The notes below the pieces were generated by a model, which saw nothing but the letters and a program-made list of their open reading frames with translations, was not told the DNA's origin and made no database searches. Position numbers and translations under genes: made by a program. From Spirochaetota bacterium (GTDB lineage: Bacteria > Spirochaetota > UBA4802 > UB4802), in the NCBI GenBank assembly GCA_040756435.1, contig JBFLZD010000020.1:1-56087 (forward strand): a DNA stretch of 56,087 bases, written 5' to 3'. Below are positions 7,543 through 56,087 of the stretch, piece by piece (within the stretch, counting starts at the first letter, position 1; the number at the start of each line of letters is the position of its first letter).

Positions 7543-7717
7543 AGGGGCGTCCCAAAAGACACCTCTTTGCAATGACTTTTGTTTTCCTGTCATTGCGAGG
7601 AACGAAGTGACGAAGCAATCTTGCTTTTAAGGGGCATTGAGATTGCTTCACTTCGTTCGCAATGACATTGCGCTCACGCCATTGCATGCCCTATAGTTTC
7701 TTTTGAGACGGCCCCTT
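7543..7717. mobile_element. MITE-like element, repeat family B, copy 1
   Basis: About 175 bp with imperfect terminal inverted repeats (AGGGGCGTCCCAAAAGA at the left; its counterpart, TCTTTTGAGACGGCCCCT, at the right). Inside are inverted CATTGCGAGGAACGAAG / CTTCGTTCGCAATG modules around GAAGCAATC. No transposase gene, so it would be moved in trans. Related copies lie at 26519-26712 and 51191-51528. The gap between the GH1 gene and fdnH holds little else. Confidence 0.75.
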
Positions 7718-11696: not shown

Positions 11697-11785
11697 GCCT
11701 CCCATATAATACAAAAAAAAGTATAAAGAAATCCCTTGCCCTTTGCAGAAAGGGAATCTATTTCTTCTTTCCAAAAATGGGAGGC
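11697..11785 (-). ncRNA. Structured leader region upstream of fdnG, possible regulatory RNA
   Basis: In the 427-base gap between fdnG and fdhE, an 89-base segment can fold into a long hairpin: outer arms GCCTCCCA (11697-11704) and TGGGAGGC (11778-11785), inner arms AGAAAT/ATTTCT, and TCCCTT/AAGGGA at the tip. It would lie about 110 bases upstream of the fdnG start in its 5' leader. It may be a cofactor-sensing riboswitch, an attenuator or simply an inverted repeat; I could not match it to a known motif such as the Moco RNA. Confidence 0.3.
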
Positions 11786-11950
11786 AAAAAGATTTCTCTT
11801 TTTACCCTTTCGACCCTGCATTCATAGCGTTACATAAGCCTTAGAAAACAGGGTTCGAAGAAACCTCTAACATTAAAAATTATTGTATATAATTGTCAAA
11901 CATAATTGGTTATGTTCCTATAAAACTTTATAAGAAATAACTGTAAAGTA

Positions 11951-16663: not shown

Positions 16664-17898
16664 ACCTTTTCTAAGATGTGAATACACATTGCTGCTTCTT
16701 CAACGCCAATATTGCCCCCACCATTTTCTGCAAGTCCCAACCGTGCATTTTCAACCTGGCGTGCTCCGGCCTCCCCCCGCAATTGTTGTACAAGTTCATG
16801 AATCTGGGCAAGGCCAGATGCACCTATGGGATGCCCTCTGCACTCCAGCCCCCCACTGGTATTAATGGGCTTTTTGCCACCTAATGTTGTTGCTCCACTT
16901 TCAGCAAAAGGACCGCCTTCGCCAACTGGGCAAAAACCCATTGATTCTGTTTGATGTAACTCACCCCAGCTTGTAGCATCATGTAGTTCTGCTAAGCTTA
17001 TATCACCAGGACCAACGCCAGCCTGCTCATACGCTAACCTTGATAATCGCTCACCAATATCCGGCGCATCAAGGTCCCTATCCTCGCCCTGTCCCATAAC
17101 CGATGCTATAATTTTTACGGGGCGAGTTCCAGACAATTTTCTTAAAAACTTTTCAGAGCATATAATTGTGGCAGCCGCACCATCGCCAACCGGTGCACAC
17201 ATCGCACGAGTCAGTGGCCATGCAACCAGCTTATCTGCCAATACTTCTTCTACTGTCATTTTGTGTTGATACTGTGACAAAGGGTTGAGTGATCCATGTA
17301 AATGATTCTTAGAGCAGATAACCGCTAACTGATACTGTGTGGATCCAAACCTGTCCATATGCCATCGCGCTCCGACAGCATATGCATCCATAAATACACT
17401 ACGGCCTTCACCTGGCTTGCTTTCATCATGCGGTATGGTTATTTTGAATGACTTACTCACTTCAACTATCATGTTTATATGCTTCTCAAAATTTTCAACA
17501 TCCATACACGATGCATAAGCACCCAGCGACAGTGCCTTATTAGGATTGGTAATTTTTTCTGAGCCAACAGCTATTGCCACATCATACATTCCTGCTTTTA
17601 TGCCAGTATATGCTAAATGCAATGCTGAAGAACCACCTGCACAGGCATTTTCTACATTAACAACAGGAATTTTATCAATTCCCATTCCCCTGAAAATAAC
17701 CTGCCCCCGTATGGAATGCTGTCCTGAGAACATGCCCCAGAAAGTATTTGAAAAAAATCCTGCCTGGATATCTTTTTTATCTATTCCAGCATCTTCCAGC
17801 GCAAGCTTTATAGCCTTTTCTGCCATTGACCTGACTGTTTCATCAGGATATTTGTTAAACCGTATCATACCGGATCCAATTATGTAGACATTACTCAT
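16657..17898 (-). CDS. SCPx-like thiolase family protein (acyl-CoA acetyltransferase)
   Basis: A 413-residue thiolase-fold protein of the sterol-carrier-protein-x type. The nucleophilic cysteine is C86 in VENACAGGSSALH; the second active-site block CRGHPIGASGLAQIHE lies near residue 355 and NGGGNIGVEEAAMCIHIL near the end. It would cleave a 3-oxoacyl-CoA to shortened acyl-CoA plus acetyl- or propionyl-CoA. The start at 17898 overlaps the dehydrogenase gene by 8 bases and has AAGGAG upstream; a start seven residues earlier lacks one. SCPx thiolases usually work with an SCP2 lipid carrier, and the first gene of this same cluster encodes one. The exact substrate is unknown. Confidence 0.88.
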   Translation of the reverse strand: MSNVYIIGSGMIRFNKYPDETVRSMAEKAIKLALEDAGIDKKDIQAGFFSNTFWGMFSGQHSIRGQVIFRGMGIDKIPVVNVENACAGGSSALHLAYTGIKAGMYDVAIAVGSEKITNPNKALSLGAYASCMDVENFEKHINMIVEVSKSFKITIPHDESKPGEGRSVFMDAYAVGARWHMDRFGSTQYQLAVICSKNHLHGSLNPLSQYQHKMTVEEVLADKLVAWPLTRAMCAPVGDGAAATIICSEKFLRKLSGTRPVKIIASVMGQGEDRDLDAPDIGERLSRLAYEQAGVGPGDISLAELHDATSWGELHQTESMGFCPVGEGGPFAESGATTLGGKKPINTSGGLECRGHPIGASGLAQIHELVQQLRGEAGARQVENARLGLAENGGGNIGVEEAAMCIHILEKVR

Positions 17899-19135
17899 CT
17901 CCCAATTTCTCCTTAACAATAATATTTCCTGCTGTCATTGATAACGTGTCATTTGAGCCATCCTCAATCATCCCTGCACGGGCATCTCTAAACAGTTTTT
18001 CAATGGTAAATTCTTTCGATAGCCCATAACCGCCAAATAGCTGTATGGCATCACTGGTTACCTGAAATGCTGCTTCAGTGCAATATACTTTAGAGGCAAT
18101 AGAATATTTAACATCGGGTGGTGTAGTATTCATATTGTATATCATGGCAGCGCGGGAAAATGCTCTAGCTGTTTCAACTTTTACAAACATATCGAATAAT
18201 TTTTTCTGCACCCACTGATGGTCACACAATCGCTTCCCACCCTGTATGCGTTCAGTACAATATTGCAATGTCATATCATATGCTGCTTGAGCAAGTCCAG
18301 TAAAATAGGCACCCATGGTTGCATTAGCGTGCCCCAATGTTAATTCCGTCATTGCCTCATAACTTTCCGGATCTACTATCATATACTCTTCAGGGCAGAT
18401 AACATTATCAAAAAATATCTCGCCCTGGGGGAGTTCTCTCTGCCCCATTTTATCCAGAGGCTTACCTCGGGTAACACCATCCTGATTTAAATCAATAAGG
18501 CAAATACCCCCTCCAGACAAACCTTTTGAAGGGTCAAGGTTCAGAAATAATGCACAGTTTGAAGCAACAGGGCCATTTGAAATCCATGCTGATTTTTGCC
18601 CGGAAATGATCCATTCACCATTTTTTTTATGTGCCTTGACCTGTTGTGTCAATGAAGCATCTTTGAAAAAGCTGGTTCGTGGAGCTAAATTATCACTTCC
18701 ATGATCAGGCTCAGTAATTCCCCAGCAACTCATGACGCTTGCATCCTTGCAATTTACAAACGGAATAACAAACTTTTCTATAAGCTTGTCCTCAGCCAAC
18801 ATAGTAGCATAAAATGCAGCAAAGCAGCTACAGCCTAATGATACTGCAAATCCCACACTACCATATGCCAGCTCCTCCCAGAAGATATGAACAGCCAATG
18901 GGTCAAGCCCTAATCCACCATATTCATCAGAAATCAAAACAGTATGGTAGCCATTCTTGTACATCTTTGCCATGCAATCCCAATAAATTGAGCCTTTTTT
19001 AACAACATCATCAGCCGGAAGTTTATCTAATTCCAGAGAAGCAGGCCGCAATACTTCCATAGAAAACCTATGTACCTGCTCTTTAAGATGTTGATGCTCA
19101 TCCGTTAGTTCTATATTGAGTTCTGTATACAGCAT
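17891..19135 (-). CDS. Acyl-CoA dehydrogenase
   Basis: A 414-residue FAD-dependent dehydrogenase that introduces a 2,3-double bond into an acyl-CoA. Seen: the substrate and flavin block SCWGITEPDHGSDN, the flavin-binding IQLFGGYGLSKEFTIEKLFRDAR, and a glutamate in MIEDGSNDT at the usual catalytic-base position. Length is typical. It starts a closely linked group with thiolase (overlap of 8 bases) and SDR, separated from the upstream ligase gene by a family C repeat. Electrons would pass to an electron-transfer flavoprotein not found in the window. Substrate chain length cannot be read from the sequence. Confidence 0.92.
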   Translation of the reverse strand: MLYTELNIELTDEHQHLKEQVHRFSMEVLRPASLELDKLPADDVVKKGSIYWDCMAKMYKNGYHTVLISDEYGGLGLDPLAVHIFWEELAYGSVGFAVSLGCSCFAAFYATMLAEDKLIEKFVIPFVNCKDASVMSCWGITEPDHGSDNLAPRTSFFKDASLTQQVKAHKKNGEWIISGQKSAWISNGPVASNCALFLNLDPSKGLSGGGICLIDLNQDGVTRGKPLDKMGQRELPQGEIFFDNVICPEEYMIVDPESYEAMTELTLGHANATMGAYFTGLAQAAYDMTLQYCTERIQGGKRLCDHQWVQKKLFDMFVKVETARAFSRAAMIYNMNTTPPDVKYSIASKVYCTEAAFQVTSDAIQLFGGYGLSKEFTIEKLFRDARAGMIEDGSNDTLSMTAGNIIVKEKLGDE

Positions 19136-19170: not shown

Positions 19171-19290
19171 TTTGGGCACTTTTCAAAAACTGCTTTCTTC
19201 CAAAATTATTCATATAATAGAAAGCGGTTTTATTCTATAATAGTGTGCCCACAAGGGAACATTCAAAAAATATTTTTTAAAGTCCCCCTA
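19171..19290 (+). repeat. Dispersed repeat family C, copy 1
   Basis: A two-hairpin element between the ligase and dehydrogenase genes. Hairpin 1 has an outer GGGCAC/GTGCCC stem and an inner stem CTGCTTTC/GAAAGCGG (with a G-T pair); hairpin 2 is formed by GGGAAC and a degenerate partner. Copies with the same order lie at 21605, 44195 and (inverted) 39526. It occupies the whole gap inside an otherwise tight operon and abuts the ligase stop codon. Confidence 0.75.
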
Positions 19291-20904
19291 TTATTTATAA
19301 TCCTCAAATGCATATATTGTCCCAACACCTTTTAAGAAATCTTCTTTAAGAACACGTGTTAAAGCTTTCTCGGTAATTGTTTTGGGAATTTCCGGAACAA
19401 TCTGCAAATATGAAGGAATAAAATTTGCTTCCAGGTTTTTTTTCAGATAATCATAAAATAATTTTGGATCAATTGATTTCCCTTCAAAACAGGCAATAGC
19501 AGCTACAAGATCACTTTCGCCAGGGGCACCAGAAGCAGCAGGAACACCATACACCGACACTTCTGATACATCCGGGTGTTTACCAATGATAGTTTCAATA
19601 TATTCTGGTTGGATGAAATCACCAGACCTTCTAAGCTCTGACCCTTTACGATAATCAAAATAATACCAGCCCTCTGAATCCCTATGTACCATATCACCGG
19701 TTCTGAGCCAACCGCCACGTGTCTTTTCTTTTGATTCTTCAGGTTTACCAAGATAATCAACTTTTGTTTCACCCTTCAATAATCTGCATATTAACTCCCC
19801 CGTCTGCCCCACTGGAACTTCATTGTCGTTTTCATCCACTATCTTAAATTCCATAACACCTGGTACAGGTTTGCCAAAAGAACCAATGGGCCCTTTCCCT
19901 ATAGGTTTATACGCAAAGCCACCTTCAACTGACCCATACCATTCAAGTATTTTAACATTGAATCGTTTTTCAAATGCTTCCCAAATTGATGCAGGAGTGC
20001 CGGCACTAATGACCACTTTGACAGGGTTATCGGCATCATCCGGTTTTTCCGGCTCATTGTATATTCCTGCCATCATTCCACCTAAAAGTGAAAATGATGT
20101 ACACCCATACTTTCTACATATATCCCATATTCTGCTTTTGGTGAATCGCGGGCTGAATACTGCAGTTATTCCCATAGAAAGTGCTGGAAATAGAGTGACT
20201 GCCTGTGCATTTCCATGCGTCAGTGATAATCCATTATATAGGATATCATCCTTCTGGTAGCGCCACACAATACTATTTAAGATATTAAACAATCCAGTTC
20301 TATTATTTCTGATTGCCACCCCTTTTGGATCGCCAGTAGTCCCCGAGGTGTATATAATCTGCATTGGGTGACGAACATCCATTATCATCTGATCAACTGT
20401 ATCCCAGGTATTCTTTTCAATTGTTTCATTCAATGCATGGTATTTATCAAGAACTGGTACAGCATGTCCTTTTTTATATAGCACACTGATTAATTTTATA
20501 GCCGGTAGATTAGGCAATACCTCTTCCAGACTGCTTAGCAGTTCATCTTCAACTATCACTGCTTTCGCATTACAATTGTGTAAAAGGAACCGTAGTTTAT
20601 CACCCCTGCTTCGCGGATCAATTGGCACCATGATGGCTCCTATCGTAGTTCCTGCTAGCAGAGCATAGACAAATTCAGGATAATTTTTCATAAAGACAGC
20701 AAATGTATCCCCCTTATCTATTCCATTATTAAGGAATAGCCGTGCTATTTTATTTGAATTTTCATAAAGGTCTTTATACGTACAGCGCTCATCTCCCATC
20801 TCACCCTGTTCAAAAATATAAACCAGAGTATCAGGATTTTCATCTGCTTTAATTTCAACCAGGTGTGAAGCTATAACTGGATTAAGATGTGCTTTTGTTG
20901 CCAT
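19291..20904 (-). CDS. Acyl-CoA synthetase (AMP-forming), CaiC-like
   Basis: A 537-residue ANL-superfamily ligase that activates a carboxylic acid with ATP and CoA. Seen: the P-loop-like IYTSGTTGDPKGVAI around residue 172, EWYGSVEGG in the adenylate site, GWLRTGDMVHRDSEGWYYFDYRK with the catalytic hinge aspartate, and the late PKTITEKALTR lysine region. Overall it resembles crotonobetaine/carnitine- and fatty-acid-CoA ligases. Start set to 20904 because GGAGGGGA lies just upstream; the ATG at 20916 overlaps that site. It is the entry enzyme of the cluster, likely feeding the dehydrogenase and thiolase. Substrate unknown. Confidence 0.9.
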   Translation of the reverse strand: MATKAHLNPVIASHLVEIKADENPDTLVYIFEQGEMGDERCTYKDLYENSNKIARLFLNNGIDKGDTFAVFMKNYPEFVYALLAGTTIGAIMVPIDPRSRGDKLRFLLHNCNAKAVIVEDELLSSLEEVLPNLPAIKLISVLYKKGHAVPVLDKYHALNETIEKNTWDTVDQMIMDVRHPMQIIYTSGTTGDPKGVAIRNNRTGLFNILNSIVWRYQKDDILYNGLSLTHGNAQAVTLFPALSMGITAVFSPRFTKSRIWDICRKYGCTSFSLLGGMMAGIYNEPEKPDDADNPVKVVISAGTPASIWEAFEKRFNVKILEWYGSVEGGFAYKPIGKGPIGSFGKPVPGVMEFKIVDENDNEVPVGQTGELICRLLKGETKVDYLGKPEESKEKTRGGWLRTGDMVHRDSEGWYYFDYRKGSELRRSGDFIQPEYIETIIGKHPDVSEVSVYGVPAASGAPGESDLVAAIACFEGKSIDPKLFYDYLKKNLEANFIPSYLQIVPEIPKTITEKALTRVLKEDFLKGVGTIYAFEDYK

Positions 20905-20919
20905 ACTCCCCTCCATATT

Positions 20920-21570
20920 TTATTCTTCGATAGCTCCTATAAATCCTCTTGTGAAAGTTGGGAATTCCTTTGCAAAAATTTCATCCCAGTGTTCTTTTGT
21001 CCAATACTGATGTCGATCAAAGAAAGGATCAGCTTTTGCAGCACTCACTGCAACTGACGTTGCAATATCAATACCTTCAAGCTTATTGAGGGCAAAAGCA
21101 GCAAATGCTATTGTACTGAACACCCTACAATGTAAGCCCAAACGCCATGCCATTGATGCAGCAGCACCAGCAGCTATATTAATATTTATATTTTTAAACT
21201 GGCAGCTTGGTCCACGTGCGGTTAATGCTTCAACTTCCTCCGCTTTATTCAGTTCAGCACAGGTTCTGTATCCACAGGCTCCGCAATTATAATTAAAATC
21301 CGATTTTCGTTTATCACCAATTAAAAGCACTGCACATGGCTCTTTTACCAGTTCCATTAGAAACCTTCCATCCCGTGCAGCCAACGGCGACATGTCCCCT
21401 AAGGAATAGCAAAACTCAGCTATATCCTTTAAATCATCAATAGAAAGGCTTACCATTTTTATGGTATTGCGCTTGCCAAATCTAAACGAATTATAGGCAG
21501 CTAAGGCCATAAGCTCAACTGCCCTATTTAATCCATTCTGTATAAGCTCATTCATATCTATTGCTGGCAT
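20920..21570 (-). CDS. DUF2148 ferredoxin-domain protein (second copy)
   Basis: A 216-residue protein of the DUF2148 family, whose members carry a ferredoxin-like cluster motif but have no established function. Seen: C96-x2-C99-x4-C104 (NCGACGYRTC) followed by C123 in GPSCQ, a likely [4Fe-4S] site, then a helical, alanine-rich region (NIAAGAAASMAWRLGL) where a small ligand could bind. It lies between the other DUF2148 gene and the acyl-CoA ligase, 15 bases before the ligase start. Being part of a beta-oxidation cluster, it may pass electrons to or from an acyl-CoA enzyme; that is inference. Confidence 0.8.
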   Translation of the reverse strand: MPAIDMNELIQNGLNRAVELMALAAYNSFRFGKRNTIKMVSLSIDDLKDIAEFCYSLGDMSPLAARDGRFLMELVKEPCAVLLIGDKRKSDFNYNCGACGYRTCAELNKAEEVEALTARGPSCQFKNININIAAGAAASMAWRLGLHCRVFSTIAFAAFALNKLEGIDIATSVAVSAAKADPFFDRHQYWTKEHWDEIFAKEFPTFTRGFIGAIEE

Positions 21571-21604
21571 AAAAAACCTCCATAAACTATTTGTTATATA
21601 TTAT

Positions 21605-21723
21605 GAAAACCTCTAAAAACTGCTTTCTTCCAAAATTATTTATATAATAGAAAGCAGTTTTATCCTATATAGTGTGCCTAAAAGGAAACATCCGAAAAAA
21701 TAGTTTTTTAGAAGTTCCCTTAT
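21605..21723 (+). repeat. Dispersed repeat family C, copy 2
   Basis: Fills the gap between the two DUF2148 genes. Inner stem of hairpin 1 is 12 paired bases, AAAACTGCTTTC with GAAAGCAGTTTT; hairpin 2 pairs AGG(G)AAC with GTTCCCT after an A/T-rich loop. The outer GGGCAC arm is degraded here. Same orientation as copy 1, opposite to transcription of the operon. Confidence 0.75.
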
Positions 21724-26270: not shown

Positions 26271-26463
26271 CCCACGACCTCTTGATATATCTATCTATAG
26301 TAGCAATTAAAACCTGCTATTCATTTATTAGATGAGTAATACAAAATTACAAGATATTAATGCAAGCAAATTCAAAAAAAATTTTATACTATATACAATT
26401 ATACAGCCTGAACAAAATTCAGTGAGTTTATATGTTTTAGTAACTAAAAATTATTTATCGATT

Positions 26464-26756
26464 TCACTAATTATTCCTAAATGTGGAAATTTGAATAAAA
26501 TATAAAATAGTGTACACCAGGGTTGTCTCAAAAGACATCTTCTGCAATGACTTTTGCCATACTGTCATTGCGAGGAACGAAGTGACGAAGCAATCTTGTC
26601 TTCTGCGGCATTGAGATTGCTTTGCTTCGACAAGCTCAGCACTGGCGCTACGCTCGCAATGACTTTGCACCCGCGTCATTGAGAACTCCACGGATTGTTT
26701 TGGGATACCCCCTGTACACTATTTTCATTATGAAATTTTTTAAGGAATTATTGCTG
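26464..26756 (+). repeat. Dispersed repeat family A, copy 2, interrupted by a family B element
   Basis: Left half (about 26464-26518) and right half (about 26713-26756) match copy 1 base for base over most of their length, including TGGAAATTTGAATAAAATATAAA, the GTGTACAC hairpin arms, and TTTTTAAGGAATTATTGCTG. The GC-rich hairpin tip is missing and a family B element stands in its place. Same orientation as copy 1. It occupies part of the 719-base gap before the hypothetical gene at 26990; the remainder of that gap (26271-26463 and 26757-26989) is AT-rich with no clear signal. Confidence 0.8.
26519..26712. mobile_element. MITE-like element, repeat family B, copy 2 (nested)
   Basis: About 194 bp between the two halves of a family A repeat. 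Ends: AGGGTTGTCTCAAAAGA and, at the right, TGTTTTGGGATACCCCC, imperfect inverted repeats shared with the other copies. The internal module CATTGCGAGGAACGAAGTG...GAAGCAATC is followed by GACAAGCTCAGCAC and CGCTCGCAATGAC. No transposase. Its position inside another repeat is direct evidence of insertion. Confidence 0.8.
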
Positions 26757-38698: not shown

Positions 38699-38808
38699 CC
38701 TATCTCATCTTCCGGAATTTCTTCCGCTGGAATTGGCACCGACTTTTACCCGTGCCGGTTGCCGTGGCTTCACAGGGCCAGTCCCTCCACCACTCTTGAT
38801 AAGATAGT
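38699..38808 (-). ncRNA. SAM-I (S-box) riboswitch aptamer
   Basis: On the minus strand the aptamer runs from CTTATCAAGAG to GATGAGATAGG. Conserved S-box pieces are exact: TTATCAAGAGTGGTGGAGGGA, ACTGGCCCTGTGAAGCC, GGCAACC and GGTGCCAATTCC, then the closing P1 strand. The four-helix junction can be drawn without effort. It sits 70 bases upstream of metX with a terminator between them, the standard OFF-switch design for methionine genes. Confidence 0.95.
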
Positions 38809-39061: not shown

Positions 39062-39391
39062 TTAAAAACTCTGAAGAGCTGCTTCAACTGAATTAAATAC
39101 TTTTATCATTGACGTAACTTTTGTTAATTCTAACACTTTCTGAACTTCTGGAGTGGGTGCAGCTAATCTGAATTGTGATTTAAGATTCTGATTAATATTT
39201 AAGAAAATACCTATACCGGAGCTGGTAATCATCTTCACATCTGAAAGATCAACAACCATACGCTTTATTCCTTTGTTGACTATAGCCTGCTGAAGCTTTT
39301 CTTTAAGGTCTGGAACATCTAATGTATGTACTTCCTGCATAATTATCTTTACAACGAATGTACCATTTCCTTTATCTGTTAATTCTATCAT
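39062..39391 (-). CDS. STAS-domain anti-sigma factor antagonist
   Basis: A 109-residue single STAS domain protein. Seen: VVDLSDVKMITSSGIGIFLNI, with the serine (TSSG) that a partner kinase would phosphorylate, and the usual beta-alpha pattern ending in KVFNSVEAAL. Such proteins bind an anti-sigma kinase and free a sigma factor or phosphatase target. Start set at 39391 (AAGGTGAG upstream); an in-frame TTG at 39421 has no support. No kinase or sigma gene lies next to it. The gap to putP holds an inverted family C repeat. Confidence 0.88.
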   Translation of the reverse strand: MIELTDKGNGTFVVKIIMQEVHTLDVPDLKEKLQQAIVNKGIKRMVVDLSDVKMITSSGIGIFLNINQNLKSQFRLAAPTPEVQKVLELTKVTSMIKVFNSVEAALQSF

Positions 39392-39525
39392 ACCGCTCAC
39401 CTTTTTATGTAATGTGCTCAATCATTTGAAATAATAGCCACAGCGATTTCTTTTAGTCAATAAAAAAATTGATTTCTTCACCTGTTAATTTCCATATTAT
39501 TTTTTTATACATTCCATGAGAAAAA

Positions 39526-39643
39526 AGGGAACTTTTAAAAACTTTAATTTTGGATATCCCCTTGTGGGCCCATACATATGATAAAACCGATTTCTATTAT
39601 ATGAATAATTGCGGAAGAACGCAGTTTTTTTAAGGTGCCCATA
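39526..39643 (-). repeat. Dispersed repeat family C, copy 4 (inverted)
   Basis: Read on the minus strand: GGGCACCTTAAAAAAACTGC, then TTCTTCCGCAATTATTCATA, the GAAATCGGTTTT partner arm, GGGCCCACAAGGGGATATCC and finally GTTCCCT. The order of hairpins is the same as in the other copies, with base changes in both arms of the inner stem. It occupies the 39392-39833 gap between the STAS gene and putP; what remains of that gap is AT-rich. Confidence 0.7.
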
Positions 39644-39833: not shown

Positions 39834-41285
39834 ATGATAACAACCTTCATAACTTTTGGATTATATCTGGTTTTGTTACTGGCAATTGGAGTATATTATT
39901 ACAATAAATCACATGATATCTCTGATTTTATACTAGGTGGCAGGAAATTAGGCAAATTTGTCATGGCACTATCTGCACAGGCCAGTGACATGAGTGGCTG
40001 GTTGCTCATGGGATTACCTGGTGCGCTGTATACCAAAGGCATGCCTGCTATATGGATTGCTGTGGGACTTTTAATTGGGACATACTGTAACTGGAAATTT
40101 GTGGCAAAACGGCTTCGTGTTTATACTGAAATTACTGATTCTATTACACTGCCAACCTTTTTTGAAGACCGCTTTAAAGACCCCACAGGGCTGCTCCGTA
40201 TTATCTCGGCTTTGATAATTCTTATTTTCTTCACCATTTATCTTTCTTCTGGATTTGTTGCATCGGGAAAACTGTTTGAGTCAATGCTTGGCATAGAATA
40301 TCACATTGCAGTACTGGTGGGTGCTGCCATTATTCTTTTTTACACATCGCTGGGAGGGTTCTTTGCCGTCAGTATTACCGATGTTGTACAGGGCTCACTT
40401 ATGTTTATTGCCATTGTTGTTGTTCCCATTGTTGCCATGCAGCACATTGGTTCCTTCAATGCTATAACTTGTGTCATGCAAAAATCATCCATACCTATTA
40501 ACCCATTTACATCAGTAACAGTACTCTCTGTAATCTCTACGGTATCATGGGGGCTTGGCTATTTTGGTCAGCCGCATATACTGGCACGATTCATGGGAAT
40601 ACATTCACACCATGATATCAAGAGTGCCCGTCAGATAGCAATGACATGGGTAACTATTTCATTATGTGGTGCCTCCTTCATTGGGATACTAGCAGTGTAT
40701 CTATTTCCACAGCTATCGGAACACAATGCCGAAAAAGTTTTTATCTTTATGATACAGAAATTTTTTACACCTTTAGTGGGTGGAATACTTCTTGCAGCAA
40801 TACTTTCGGCAATCATGTCCACAGCTGATTCACAACTTTTGGTGTGTTCAGCAGCTTTAACTGAAGACTTTTACCAGCGTATTATTAAACGCAATGCATC
40901 ACAGAAAGAATTAATTCACATTGGTCGAATTACCACAATGCTTATTACAGCCATTGCGGCACTATTTGCCATGAATCCTGAAAATACAGTTCTGGGACTG
41001 GTAGCCTATGCATGGGGCGGTTTTGGTGCTGCGTTTGGCCCTATAGTACTTTTTGCACTTTTTTCAAAGAATACCTCATGGCAATCCGTATTGGGGGGAA
41101 TGCTTGCAGGGACAATTGCACTGGTTTCATGGAATTTTTTAGGCTTAAGTAAATATTGTTATGAGATAGTTCCCGGATTTATTGCAAATGTGATAACCAT
41201 TATTGTTCTTAACAGAATCTATCCTCCACAAAATTCCACAATCAATGCCGAATTTGAAAAAATGACAAAAGAGATGCTATCCTAA
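39834..41285 (+). CDS. putP: Sodium/solute symporter, proline permease-like
   Basis: A 483-residue secondary transporter of the sodium-solute symporter family with about 13 membrane helices. The family block GGRKLGKFVMALSAQASDMSGWLLMGLPG near residues 36-64 contains the sodium-site residues, and AAILSAIMSTADSQLLVCSAALTEDFYQ around 325-352 is the helix-8/9 block conserved in PutP. Proline uptake with sodium is the best guess. Transcribed alone from an upstream region with a family C repeat. No metabolic gene for proline nearby. Confidence 0.9.
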   Translation: MITTFITFGLYLVLLLAIGVYYYNKSHDISDFILGGRKLGKFVMALSAQASDMSGWLLMGLPGALYTKGMPAIWIAVGLLIGTYCNWKFVAKRLRVYTEITDSITLPTFFEDRFKDPTGLLRIISALIILIFFTIYLSSGFVASGKLFESMLGIEYHIAVLVGAAIILFYTSLGGFFAVSITDVVQGSLMFIAIVVVPIVAMQHIGSFNAITCVMQKSSIPINPFTSVTVLSVISTVSWGLGYFGQPHILARFMGIHSHHDIKSARQIAMTWVTISLCGASFIGILAVYLFPQLSEHNAEKVFIFMIQKFFTPLVGGILLAAILSAIMSTADSQLLVCSAALTEDFYQRIIKRNASQKELIHIGRITTMLITAIAALFAMNPENTVLGLVAYAWGGFGAAFGPIVLFALFSKNTSWQSVLGGMLAGTIALVSWNFLGLSKYCYEIVPGFIANVITIIVLNRIYPPQNSTINAEFEKMTKEMLS

Positions 41286-42926: not shown

Positions 42927-43931
42927 TCATCCATTGGGTCGTTCTTTTCTCATTTGTTGAGGTGATTTTTTAAAGTGCTTTACAAACTGCCGGTAAAATG
43001 TGGCTAAATTTTCATAGCCTACATCAAAAGCAACTTCAATTATTTTTTTATCAGAATATAATAATAAATGACGCGCTTTTTCCAGGCGTACAATTTGTAT
43101 ATATTTATTTATGGTTATACCTTCTTCACTTTTAAAGACTTTAGATATATAATCAGGATGCATTTCGCATTGTAGTGCAATGGTATACCTATCAATAGGT
43201 GAATTATAGTACTCATTGACATGTTCTTTAATTATTTTGATCAATGTTTTATATTTTTCAGTTGTATATAATAACTCATTATCTATTGCAATATAATCTA
43301 TGGGATTATCATTATATAAACTGATTAAAAATTTTGCAATAAAACTGATTATAGATACCGATATCACAGCAAAAACAAATAGTGAAGACATCATTATATA
43401 ACTATCCATAACCAGTATGCAATAACCAATGGTTAATAGTACTAAGATCAGGAATGATTCCCTGTAAGGGAAATGTACCTTGAAACATGGTAAATTCACT
43501 GGTTTTACAAAAAAAATACTGAAAGAAAGAATCATATCAACGCCAGGAATTATAATCTTTTGATGATCATAAACATTATTTGAAAATAGAATAAAAAATA
43601 CTATGATTATACTTTTACCAACAACCGAGTACATATTTCTATGAAAATAACTACTTCTATCCCTATAAGGGGATTCTGCCACCATCAAACAATAAATACC
43701 TATAAAAATTATAACAAGGGCAACCATATAATGGGGTATAAAAATATACATAGAAAGAGGATATACATAAATTAACGAAACAAACATCAGTGCTACACAT
43801 AATAGTAAAACTGGCACAATTATTTTGTCTTTCTTTATTGTATAGATAGTAGCTGTAACTATAATGCAGCAACAATAAGAAATAAAAATGCTTATTGGGA
43901 GATAGTAAATAACAATAATATCTTTAACCAT
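42927..43931 (-). CDS. Membrane-anchored AraC-family regulator
   Basis: A 334-residue protein. The N-terminal 210 residues contain about seven hydrophobic helices; the C-terminal 100 are an AraC double helix-turn-helix: YTIALQCEMHPDYISKVFKSEEGITINKYIQIVRLEKARHLL and IEVAFDVGYENLATFYRQFVKHFKKSPQQMRKE. This 7TM-AraC design senses something in or through the membrane and acts on DNA directly; it is frequent in Leptospira-like spirochaetes. No target is obvious; the sensor-like lipoprotein gene lies upstream on the other strand. The gap 43932-44389 contains the third C repeat and nothing else recognised. Confidence 0.88.
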   Translation of the reverse strand: MVKDIIVIYYLPISIFISYCCCIIVTATIYTIKKDKIIVPVLLLCVALMFVSLIYVYPLSMYIFIPHYMVALVIIFIGIYCLMVAESPYRDRSSYFHRNMYSVVGKSIIIVFFILFSNNVYDHQKIIIPGVDMILSFSIFFVKPVNLPCFKVHFPYRESFLILVLLTIGYCILVMDSYIMMSSLFVFAVISVSIISFIAKFLISLYNDNPIDYIAIDNELLYTTEKYKTLIKIIKEHVNEYYNSPIDRYTIALQCEMHPDYISKVFKSEEGITINKYIQIVRLEKARHLLLYSDKKIIEVAFDVGYENLATFYRQFVKHFKKSPQQMRKERPNG

Positions 43932-44194: not shown

Positions 44195-44318
44195 TTTTGG
44201 GCACTTCTAAAAACTGCTTTCTTCCAAAATTATTTATATAATCGAAATCAGTTTTAACCTAAATATTGTGCCCACAAGGGAACATCCAAAAAAATAATTT
44301 TCAGATGTTCCCTTATTT
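44195..44318 (+). repeat. Dispersed repeat family C, copy 3
   Basis: TTTTGGGCACTTCTAAAAACTGC, then GCCCACAAGGGAACATCC and finally GATGTTCCCTT, so GGGCAC/GTGCCC and AAGGGAACATC/GATGTTCCCTT stems are both intact; the second hairpin is the most regular of the four copies. The inner stem of hairpin 1 is weaker. It lies 70 bases upstream of the lipoprotein gene. Confidence 0.75.
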
Positions 44319-44404
44319 TATAATTGTGATTAACCACATACAAACCGATTATTATATAAGAACTCTAAAAAAAGTAACCTGCAATATCCATGAATTACAA
44401 TTTT

Positions 44405-45133
44405 ATGAAGATACAAAACCTAATTATACCTGTATTATTTTTTTTATATCTATCATCCTGCAGCACAAAAATAACAACAAAATCTGATGTGCGGCTTATA
44501 TCAGCTTTGTTTGCCCCTTATATTAATGATATGAGTAATGCTGTTACTATCATACAAAAACATGAACTTATAGCCAATCTTACACATCTTATGACTATGG
44601 ATAATGGTGGCCGTAAGTATTATCTGCTTGAATATGAGCACATAAACGAGATGATTGGTAATGTCACACAACAACTCTATGAAGATATGATTATAATCAA
44701 TAGCTCTTATACAATACTATTTTCTATGAAAAGCATTGATCTTTATGGAAGAAGATTATCGCAACTATCTCCTATGTTGCATTACTTTGTTTCAAATCTT
44801 CCATATGATGATATAGCCATATATAAACCCTTTGAATATCCTCCTATGTCAGGCAATTACAGTTTCTGTATATGCTACCCTATTCAAATAAATGACAGAA
44901 ACAAGGGATTTTGTATTGGGCTTATCAATCAGAACAAGTTTTATGACATATTACCCGCTGATTCAATCATTGCTGAAACCAATGGCCAGGTTATTTTCAA
45001 TATAATACAAAGAGGTTCATTGAAGCTTGATGAAGATAAATTAAATAAATCATCAATTAATGTATCCGGGAAAAATTATACTATAAGTTTGTTACAATAT
45101 AAGAATATTACCTGGTATATACTATATCCGTAA
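44405..45133 (+). CDS. Sensor-like lipoprotein, unknown function
   Basis: A 242-residue protein from the start at 44405 (an upstream ATG at 44390 is also in frame). N-terminus MKIQNLIIPVLFFLYLSSC is a lipoprotein signal with the lipobox LSSC. The mature part has a helix-rich first half (LISALFAPYINDMSNAVTIIQKHELI) and a beta-rich second half (SFCICYPIQINDRNKGFCIGLINQNKFYDIL, VINFNIIQRGSL) that resembles Cache-type extracellular sensor domains, though without the following membrane helix and output domain. It could bind a small ligand at the membrane surface. I do not recognise a named family. Confidence 0.55.
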   Translation: MKIQNLIIPVLFFLYLSSCSTKITTKSDVRLISALFAPYINDMSNAVTIIQKHELIANLTHLMTMDNGGRKYYLLEYEHINEMIGNVTQQLYEDMIIINSSYTILFSMKSIDLYGRRLSQLSPMLHYFVSNLPYDDIAIYKPFEYPPMSGNYSFCICYPIQINDRNKGFCIGLINQNKFYDILPADSIIAETNGQVIFNIIQRGSLKLDEDKLNKSSINVSGKNYTISLLQYKNITWYILYP

Positions 45134-51190: not shown

Positions 51191-51528
51191 AGGGAACCCA
51201 AAGATATTGCTTTACAATGACTTTTACCCTCCTATCATTGCAAGAAACGAAGTGACGAAGCAATCCCATAGTTGCGAGCGCCGCAGGCGCGTGGCAATCT
51301 CATCTTCTGCGGCATTGAGATTGCTTCACTTCGTTCGCAATGACACATCGGCCAATCCCGTCATTGCGAGTGCCGCAGGCACGAAGCAATCTTGTCTTAT
51401 ACAATTGAGATTGCCACACTCCGAAAAGTGGTTGCTGAGCCTGTCGAAGTACTCAGTACAGGTACTACTCTCGCAATGACTTTGCACCCACATCATTGAG
51501 ATCCCCACTGTTTGTTTTGGGACACCCT
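51191..51528. mobile_element. MITE-like element, repeat family B, copy 3 (long)
   Basis: About 338 bp, nearly twice the other copies. Ends AGGGAACCCAAAGA and TGTTTTGGGACACCCT are imperfect inverted repeats. The internal CATTGCGAG...GAAGCAATC unit occurs about four times in alternating orientation, and an inserted GCCGCAGGC motif appears twice. It fills most of the 51116-51652 gap between PBP1A and the small membrane protein. No transposase. Confidence 0.75.
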
Positions 51529-56031: not shown

Positions 56032-56087
56032 TCAGCAATAATTCCTTAAAAAATTTCATAATGAATATAGTGTACATCCCCGCCGCC
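56032..56087 (-). repeat. Dispersed repeat family A, copy 3 (cut by window edge)
   Basis: Right half in inverted orientation: TCAGCAATAATTCC, then TTCATAATGAATATAGTGTAC and CCCCGCCGCC, where the window ends in the left arm of the GC hairpin. Same order as copy 1 read from the other strand. It lies just upstream of the secreted-protein gene. Confidence 0.75.

Follow-up and report, generated by a model that had tools for sequence, protein, structure and literature searches.

A two-hairpin MITE family of uncultured spirochetes, probably mobilized by an IS5-type transposase

The 56,087-nucleotide stretch of spirochete DNA analyzed here (the window) contains four copies of one 121-122 bp element, whose consensus is TATGGGCACCTCTAAAAACTGCTTTCTTCCNAAATTATTCATATAATAGAAAGCRGTTTTATCCTATATATTGTGCCCACAAGGGAACATCCNAAAAAACAGTTTTTAGAAGTTCCCTTAT and which fits the definition of a prokaryotic MITE, because it is short (121 bp) and non-coding, is dispersed in about 77 copies over this 3.6-Mb draft genome (G000), carries terminal inverted repeats, and is flanked on both sides by TTAT at sites that are empty in a sister species in six clean cases. 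Given that its ends are shared with IS5-family insertion sequences, which produce 4-bp target duplications, the elements are best read as MITEs that were very probably mobilized by an IS5-type transposase. An order-wide MITE family of uncultured spirochetes is now known, along with a candidate for its mobilizer. The copies in the window, with their neighboring genes and the parts of the copy at 44196, are as follows.

19171-19291, + strand: MITE copy 1 (covariance model, 119.7 bits), between the stop of an AMP-binding ligase gene (19291-20916, - strand) and the start of an acyl-CoA dehydrogenase gene (17891-19135, - strand)
21602-21723, + strand: MITE copy 2 (119.9 bits), between two DUF2148 genes
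39523-39643, - strand (inverted): MITE copy 3 (109.5 bits), between a STAS-domain gene (39062-39421, - strand) and a sodium:solute symporter gene (39834-41285, + strand)
44196-44316, + strand: MITE copy 4 (137.1 bits), between an AraC-type regulator gene (42927-43931, - strand) and an open reading frame (44390-45133, + strand)
44199-44214, + strand: left terminal inverted repeat of copy 4, GGGCACTTCTAAAAAC
44298-44312, - strand: right terminal inverted repeat of copy 4, GGGAACATCTGAAAA on the - strand
44199-44273, + strand: hairpin 1 of copy 4, with a GGGCAC/GTGCCC outer stem and a covarying inner stem
44276-44314, + strand: hairpin 2 of copy 4, AAGGGAAC...GTTCCCTT

The element runs from a GGGCAC outer stem through a 12-bp inner stem (AAAACTGCTTTC / GAAAGCRGTTTT), GTGCCC, and ACAA to the GGGAAC...GTTCCC hairpin. 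The preliminary description had reported four two-hairpin copies in this order, two of them filling gaps of an acyl-CoA operon, and both statements hold, with the limits of the copies refined and E values down to 1e-24 in the genomic search. The operon, on the minus strand, encodes the acyl-CoA dehydrogenase, the AMP-binding ligase, and two DUF2148 ferredoxin-type proteins, and hosts copies 1 and 2. The flanks are TTTT/CTAT for copy 1, derived from a TTAT target, TTAT/TTAT for copy 2, and TTTT/TTAT for copy 4. In copy 2, the outer arm has decayed to GAAAAC and hairpin 2 reads GGAAAC, while copy 3 has GGGCCC in its outer 3' arm and GGGGAT in hairpin 2. When the four copies were folded on both strands, seven of the eight folds were more stable than all 200 shuffles (z -3.6 to -6.7); the eighth, copy 3 in element orientation, was weak (z -2.25) and was equaled by 5 of 200 shuffles. 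The element had no match in Rfam at the gathering threshold.

A covariance model made from 31 copies gave about 80 matches in G000, from which 77 distinct copies were gathered, whereas 5-9 copies were found in each of four congeneric genomes. The copies differ from the consensus by a mean of 13.6%, with a nearest-neighbor value of 87%. A second model, built from 25 copies of many genera and applied with stricter filters that make its counts lower bounds, matched at least 25 genomes of the order and, among about 250 further genomes of the phylum, at least 3. The genome G029 contains 37 copies, and the variation of copy number between genera, from none to dozens, suggests separate bursts of amplification in different genera. 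Among named records, the conserved core was found in uncultured Spirochaetes and one Leptospiraceae genome; a match in Asaia was rejected because it does not fit the covariance model, and GTGCCCACAAGGGAACATCC was not matched in viral contigs. Single strong copies exist in G094, a genome outside the order (L309, 109 bits), and in a named Leptospiraceae MAG (L265, 104.6 bits), for both of which horizontal transfer is possible.

The copies are insertions, since six orthologous sites in a sister species are empty, and the insertion events are recent. A comparison of 36 G000 loci, the element itself excluded from the flanking sequence, to about 0.6 Mb of the sister genome G001 gave six clean empty sites, namely those of the window copies at 19171 and 44196 and of the copies in L032, L040, L042, and L043. 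Each of them contains one TAT, mostly as TTAT, where G000 reads TTAT-GGGCAC...GTTCCC-TTAT, so that one copy of the target precedes the insertion and two follow it. The 44196 site is empty in G001 with a single TTAT, and the 19171 site is empty in both G001 and another sister genome, G003. The 21602 copy is also absent from these two genomes, but G001 carries 28 bp of other sequence at the position, which is therefore not a clean empty site. Over the 77 copies, the bases T-T-A-T are found at 94, 97, 91, and 95% in the left flank and at 84, 94, 88, and 92% in the right flank, while the bases beyond them show an A/T bias and are otherwise unconstrained. The target is oriented relative to the element, since the left flank reads TTAT rather than ATAA; in G019 most elements are flanked on both sides by ATAA, and a copy in G144 has ATAT flanks. 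By itself, the pattern of the empty sites would be just as expected if the right end of the element included a TTAT.

The terminal inverted repeat, GGGNACYTCTAAAAA, occupies the outermost 15 bases at both ends and is conserved across genera. An IS5-type element in G035 gave a lead; related proteins are encoded by 21 genomes of the phylum, and the ends were compared in those relatives for which they are readable. The left-end consensus of the family, GGGCACCTCTAAAAAC, is identical to both ends of an insertion sequence in G275 (16/16 bases). The right-end form, GGGAACYTCTAAAAA, recurs in the right end of an insertion sequence in G310 (left GGGCATCTCTAAAAACTC, right GGGAACCTCTAAAAACC); this right end agrees with the element at 15 of 16 bases, and the insertion sequence has the same C/A asymmetry between its ends. 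The IS5-family insertion sequences of the phylum are 1.2-1.3 kb long, their transposases score above the NF033581 IS5 cut-off, and they are flanked by the 4-bp duplications TTTA, ATAT, ATAT, AATA, and TTAA, while two copies have unequal flanks; TTAT of the element would likewise be a 4-bp duplication. Other observations are less favorable to the IS5 reading. IS5-type targets are usually symmetric, whereas that of the element is TTAT in one orientation. No homology beyond the approximately 16 terminal bases was seen between the element and the insertion sequences found, though mobilization in trans does not require it, and an autonomous element with internal GTGCCCACAAGGGAACATCC was not found. 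In addition, neither a DDE_Tnp_1 nor an IS5-type gene was detected in G000, G029, or G038, which are three of the highest-copy genomes. Judging from the shared ends, we infer that an NF033581-type DDE transposase supplied in trans would bind the GGGNACYTCTAAAAA ends, excise the element, and insert it at TTAT with duplication of those four bases. In this reading, the family in G000 grew to about 77 copies and later decayed, with a transposase of the NF033581 type now undetected there.

Besides noting that the elements may be mobile, for which the empty sites, the 4-bp repeats at the ends, the terminal repeats shared with IS5, and the excess of about 77 copies over 5-9 now speak, the preliminary description considered them as possible RNA processing sites or transcript stabilizers. 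A transcribed regulatory RNA, whose hairpins would be retained as RNase III sites or stabilizers in the manner of the Correia/NEMIS elements, could explain why seven of the eight window folds surpass every shuffle on both strands, why two copies sit inside an operon, and why compensatory change between genera is so strong. Between genera, 63 doubly changed cells were counted against 20 in shuffles, a comparison inflated by relatedness, and against 3-10 in slid controls, which are less so, and 11 pairs have changes on both sides. In further families both outer stems have changed in step; in G019, for example, GGGCAC/GTGCCC is replaced by GGGAAC/GTTCCC and hairpin 2, GGGAAC/GTTCCC, by GGTTAC/GTAACC; hairpin 2 elsewhere becomes GGGTAC/GTACCC or GGTCAC/GTGACC, and the inner stem retains pairing while its sequence differs between genera. 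Within G000, by contrast, covariation is slight: in the first 31 copies 93.4% of cells are paired versus 92.8% in shuffles, and the 21 doubly compensated cells in 77 copies, versus 8.3 expected, could be explained by shared ancestry. Variation per site is 0.079 at paired and 0.179 at unpaired positions, although much of the latter comes from loop positions that differ between subfamilies. If one transcript strand were selected, G-U pairs would be retained and A-C mismatches purged, but their ratio in the 77 copies is 80:79, with one pair polymorphic by subfamily left out, where 1:1 is expected without strand-specific selection. No transcript strand is thus under visible selection. This result argues against a strong constraint on the RNA of one strand when the copies are taken together, and is compatible with roles of single copies or with selection on DNA structure. 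Moreover, no consistent orientation of the element relative to the flanking genes was seen among the 77 copies, 31 of which a simple ORF-based call places between divergent genes, with the remainder split. A terminator-like site was absent from the two copies and their regions that were scanned, and promoter-like sites there were no commoner than in shuffles. The insertions are also species-specific, the operon copy at 19171 being missing from two sister species, which does not favor an RNA role for it. Conservation as regulatory RNA is, on this evidence, quite unlikely, and nothing shows an RNA job for single copies; for the fatty-acid operon, the guess at RNA regulation is replaced by a species-specific insertion event.

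Two other types of mobile element deserve consideration beside the IS5 type. A single-strand HUH element, either IS200/IS605- or REP/RAYT-like, would use the hairpins as recognition structures and TTAT as an oriented target without true duplication. It would accord with the orientation of that target, with the conservation of structure rather than of inner-stem sequence, and with the 15 RAYT-like Y1 transposase genes present in G000 (L154-L168). The element, however, lies near none of the 15 Y1 genes of G000 and near none of 36 Y1 loci searched, and no palindromes of the element flank a Y1 gene there, while further Y1 loci gave one chance-level match; several of the RAYT genes have GGGGTCAGAGC palindromes on their flanks instead, and G029, with its 37 copies, has just one, distant Y1 gene. 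Orientation linked to the replication strand, as in IS200/IS605, was not seen either: neighboring copies on a contig have the same orientation in 18 cases and different ones in 14, and no link appeared with local GC skew, which is a weak proxy. The change from one TTAT when empty to two when filled would look alike if the element bore a TTAT at its right end. The terminal repeats are the same as in DDE insertion sequences, whose 4-bp duplications vary. An HUH origin is quite improbable. Movement as an IS630/Tc1-type MITE with TA duplication could draw on AT-rich targets and on the duplicated central TA of TTAT. This reading, already disfavored, seems extremely improbable, since a DDE_3 (PF13358) gene is absent from G000 and every high-copy genome, the outer T bases are fixed at both ends too and are mostly present in empty sites, and the ends match IS5-family elements.

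For MITEs mobilized by an IS5-type enzyme, the two hairpins would be selected, if at all, at the DNA level in mobile master copies and not as RNA in residents. That the two-hairpin fold itself is required for movement of the DDE element, with single-strand structure and the oriented TTAT taking part, is an unlikely extension of this reading. Such a requirement, if real, would explain the order-wide covariation of the hairpins despite freely decaying single copies, and would bring single-strand structure into a type of transposition thought to need double-stranded ends only. The preliminary description had set compensatory change against plain MITE remains, which proves a false alternative, because compensation between genera is strong and the elements are nevertheless MITEs. 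The family therefore serves as a caution: stems may covary strongly between genera although the resident copies show no strand-specific selection, and covariation alone is no proof of RNA function.

Comparison with known systems places the element closest to the IS5 family (NF033581 transpos_IS5_4, DUF772 + DDE_Tnp_1), which it resembles in the GGGNACYTCTAAAAA repeat, in the asymmetry seen in G310, in the 4-bp AT-rich duplication, and in a short palindrome that some right ends possess. It differs in being 121 bp long without a gene, in having nothing recognizable in common past the terminal bases, and in a target that is nearly always TTAT and in a single orientation. The Correia/NEMIS elements of Neisseria are also small and dispersed, with more than 100 copies, 24-bp terminal repeats ending in TA, stable stem-loops in transcripts, and reported processing by RNase III (PMC2229807, PMC10969869); the element shares their small size, dispersal, terminal repeats with TA at the ends, and stem-loops, but it differs from them in the length of those repeats, in its IS5-type ends, and in a duplication of 4 bp. 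RUP of Streptococcus pneumoniae, related to IS630-Spn1 (PMC2229807), is similarly a MITE tied to an insertion sequence by terminal repeats and target alone, but it is of the IS630 type with a TA target, in contrast with the IS5 type and 4-bp target here. REP/BIME sequences with RAYT are high-copy intergenic palindromes as well, while the element is longer, is flanked by a 4-bp repeat, and has no cognate RAYT nearby. Our literature search, of incomplete coverage, returned reviews of prokaryotic MITEs and no paper on this family.

Several structures were found around the copies. On contig C37 of G000, copies are clustered or abut end to end: L181 (G000:C37:10797-11226) holds three copies in the same orientation within 430 bp, and two of them abut with one TTAT in common. 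A pattern search for solo element ends gave one extra place among the matches listed, G000:C1:80568-80585 (L174), a remnant of about 40 bp that looks like a collapsed derivative in which both ends are joined directly. In G033, a DDE_Tnp_4 pseudogene beside an element end (L339, 1368-2168 of G033:C37) was considered as a parent and rejected, because its homologue in G022 (L343) has its own ends, GAGTTGTTGCAAAAC; the likeliest reading of the remnant is a nested insertion, apparently in the loop of an element whose other half is missing from the contig. Another repeat family, TGTCATTGCGAGGAACGAAGTGACGAAGCAATC, is clustered at 7552-7654, 26527-26710, and 51197-51527 of the window and also adjoins the element cluster of C37 in G000. 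The window further contains a Moco riboswitch (11748-11872, - strand) and a SAM riboswitch (38702-38805, - strand), each scoring well over the Rfam gathering threshold. Finally, 44-bp inverted repeats at 26713-26756 and 56033-56076 and 57-bp direct repeats at 1165-1221 and 26462-26518 have TGTACAC ends; one of these repeats lies at the contig end, and they are possibly the ends of another mobile element.
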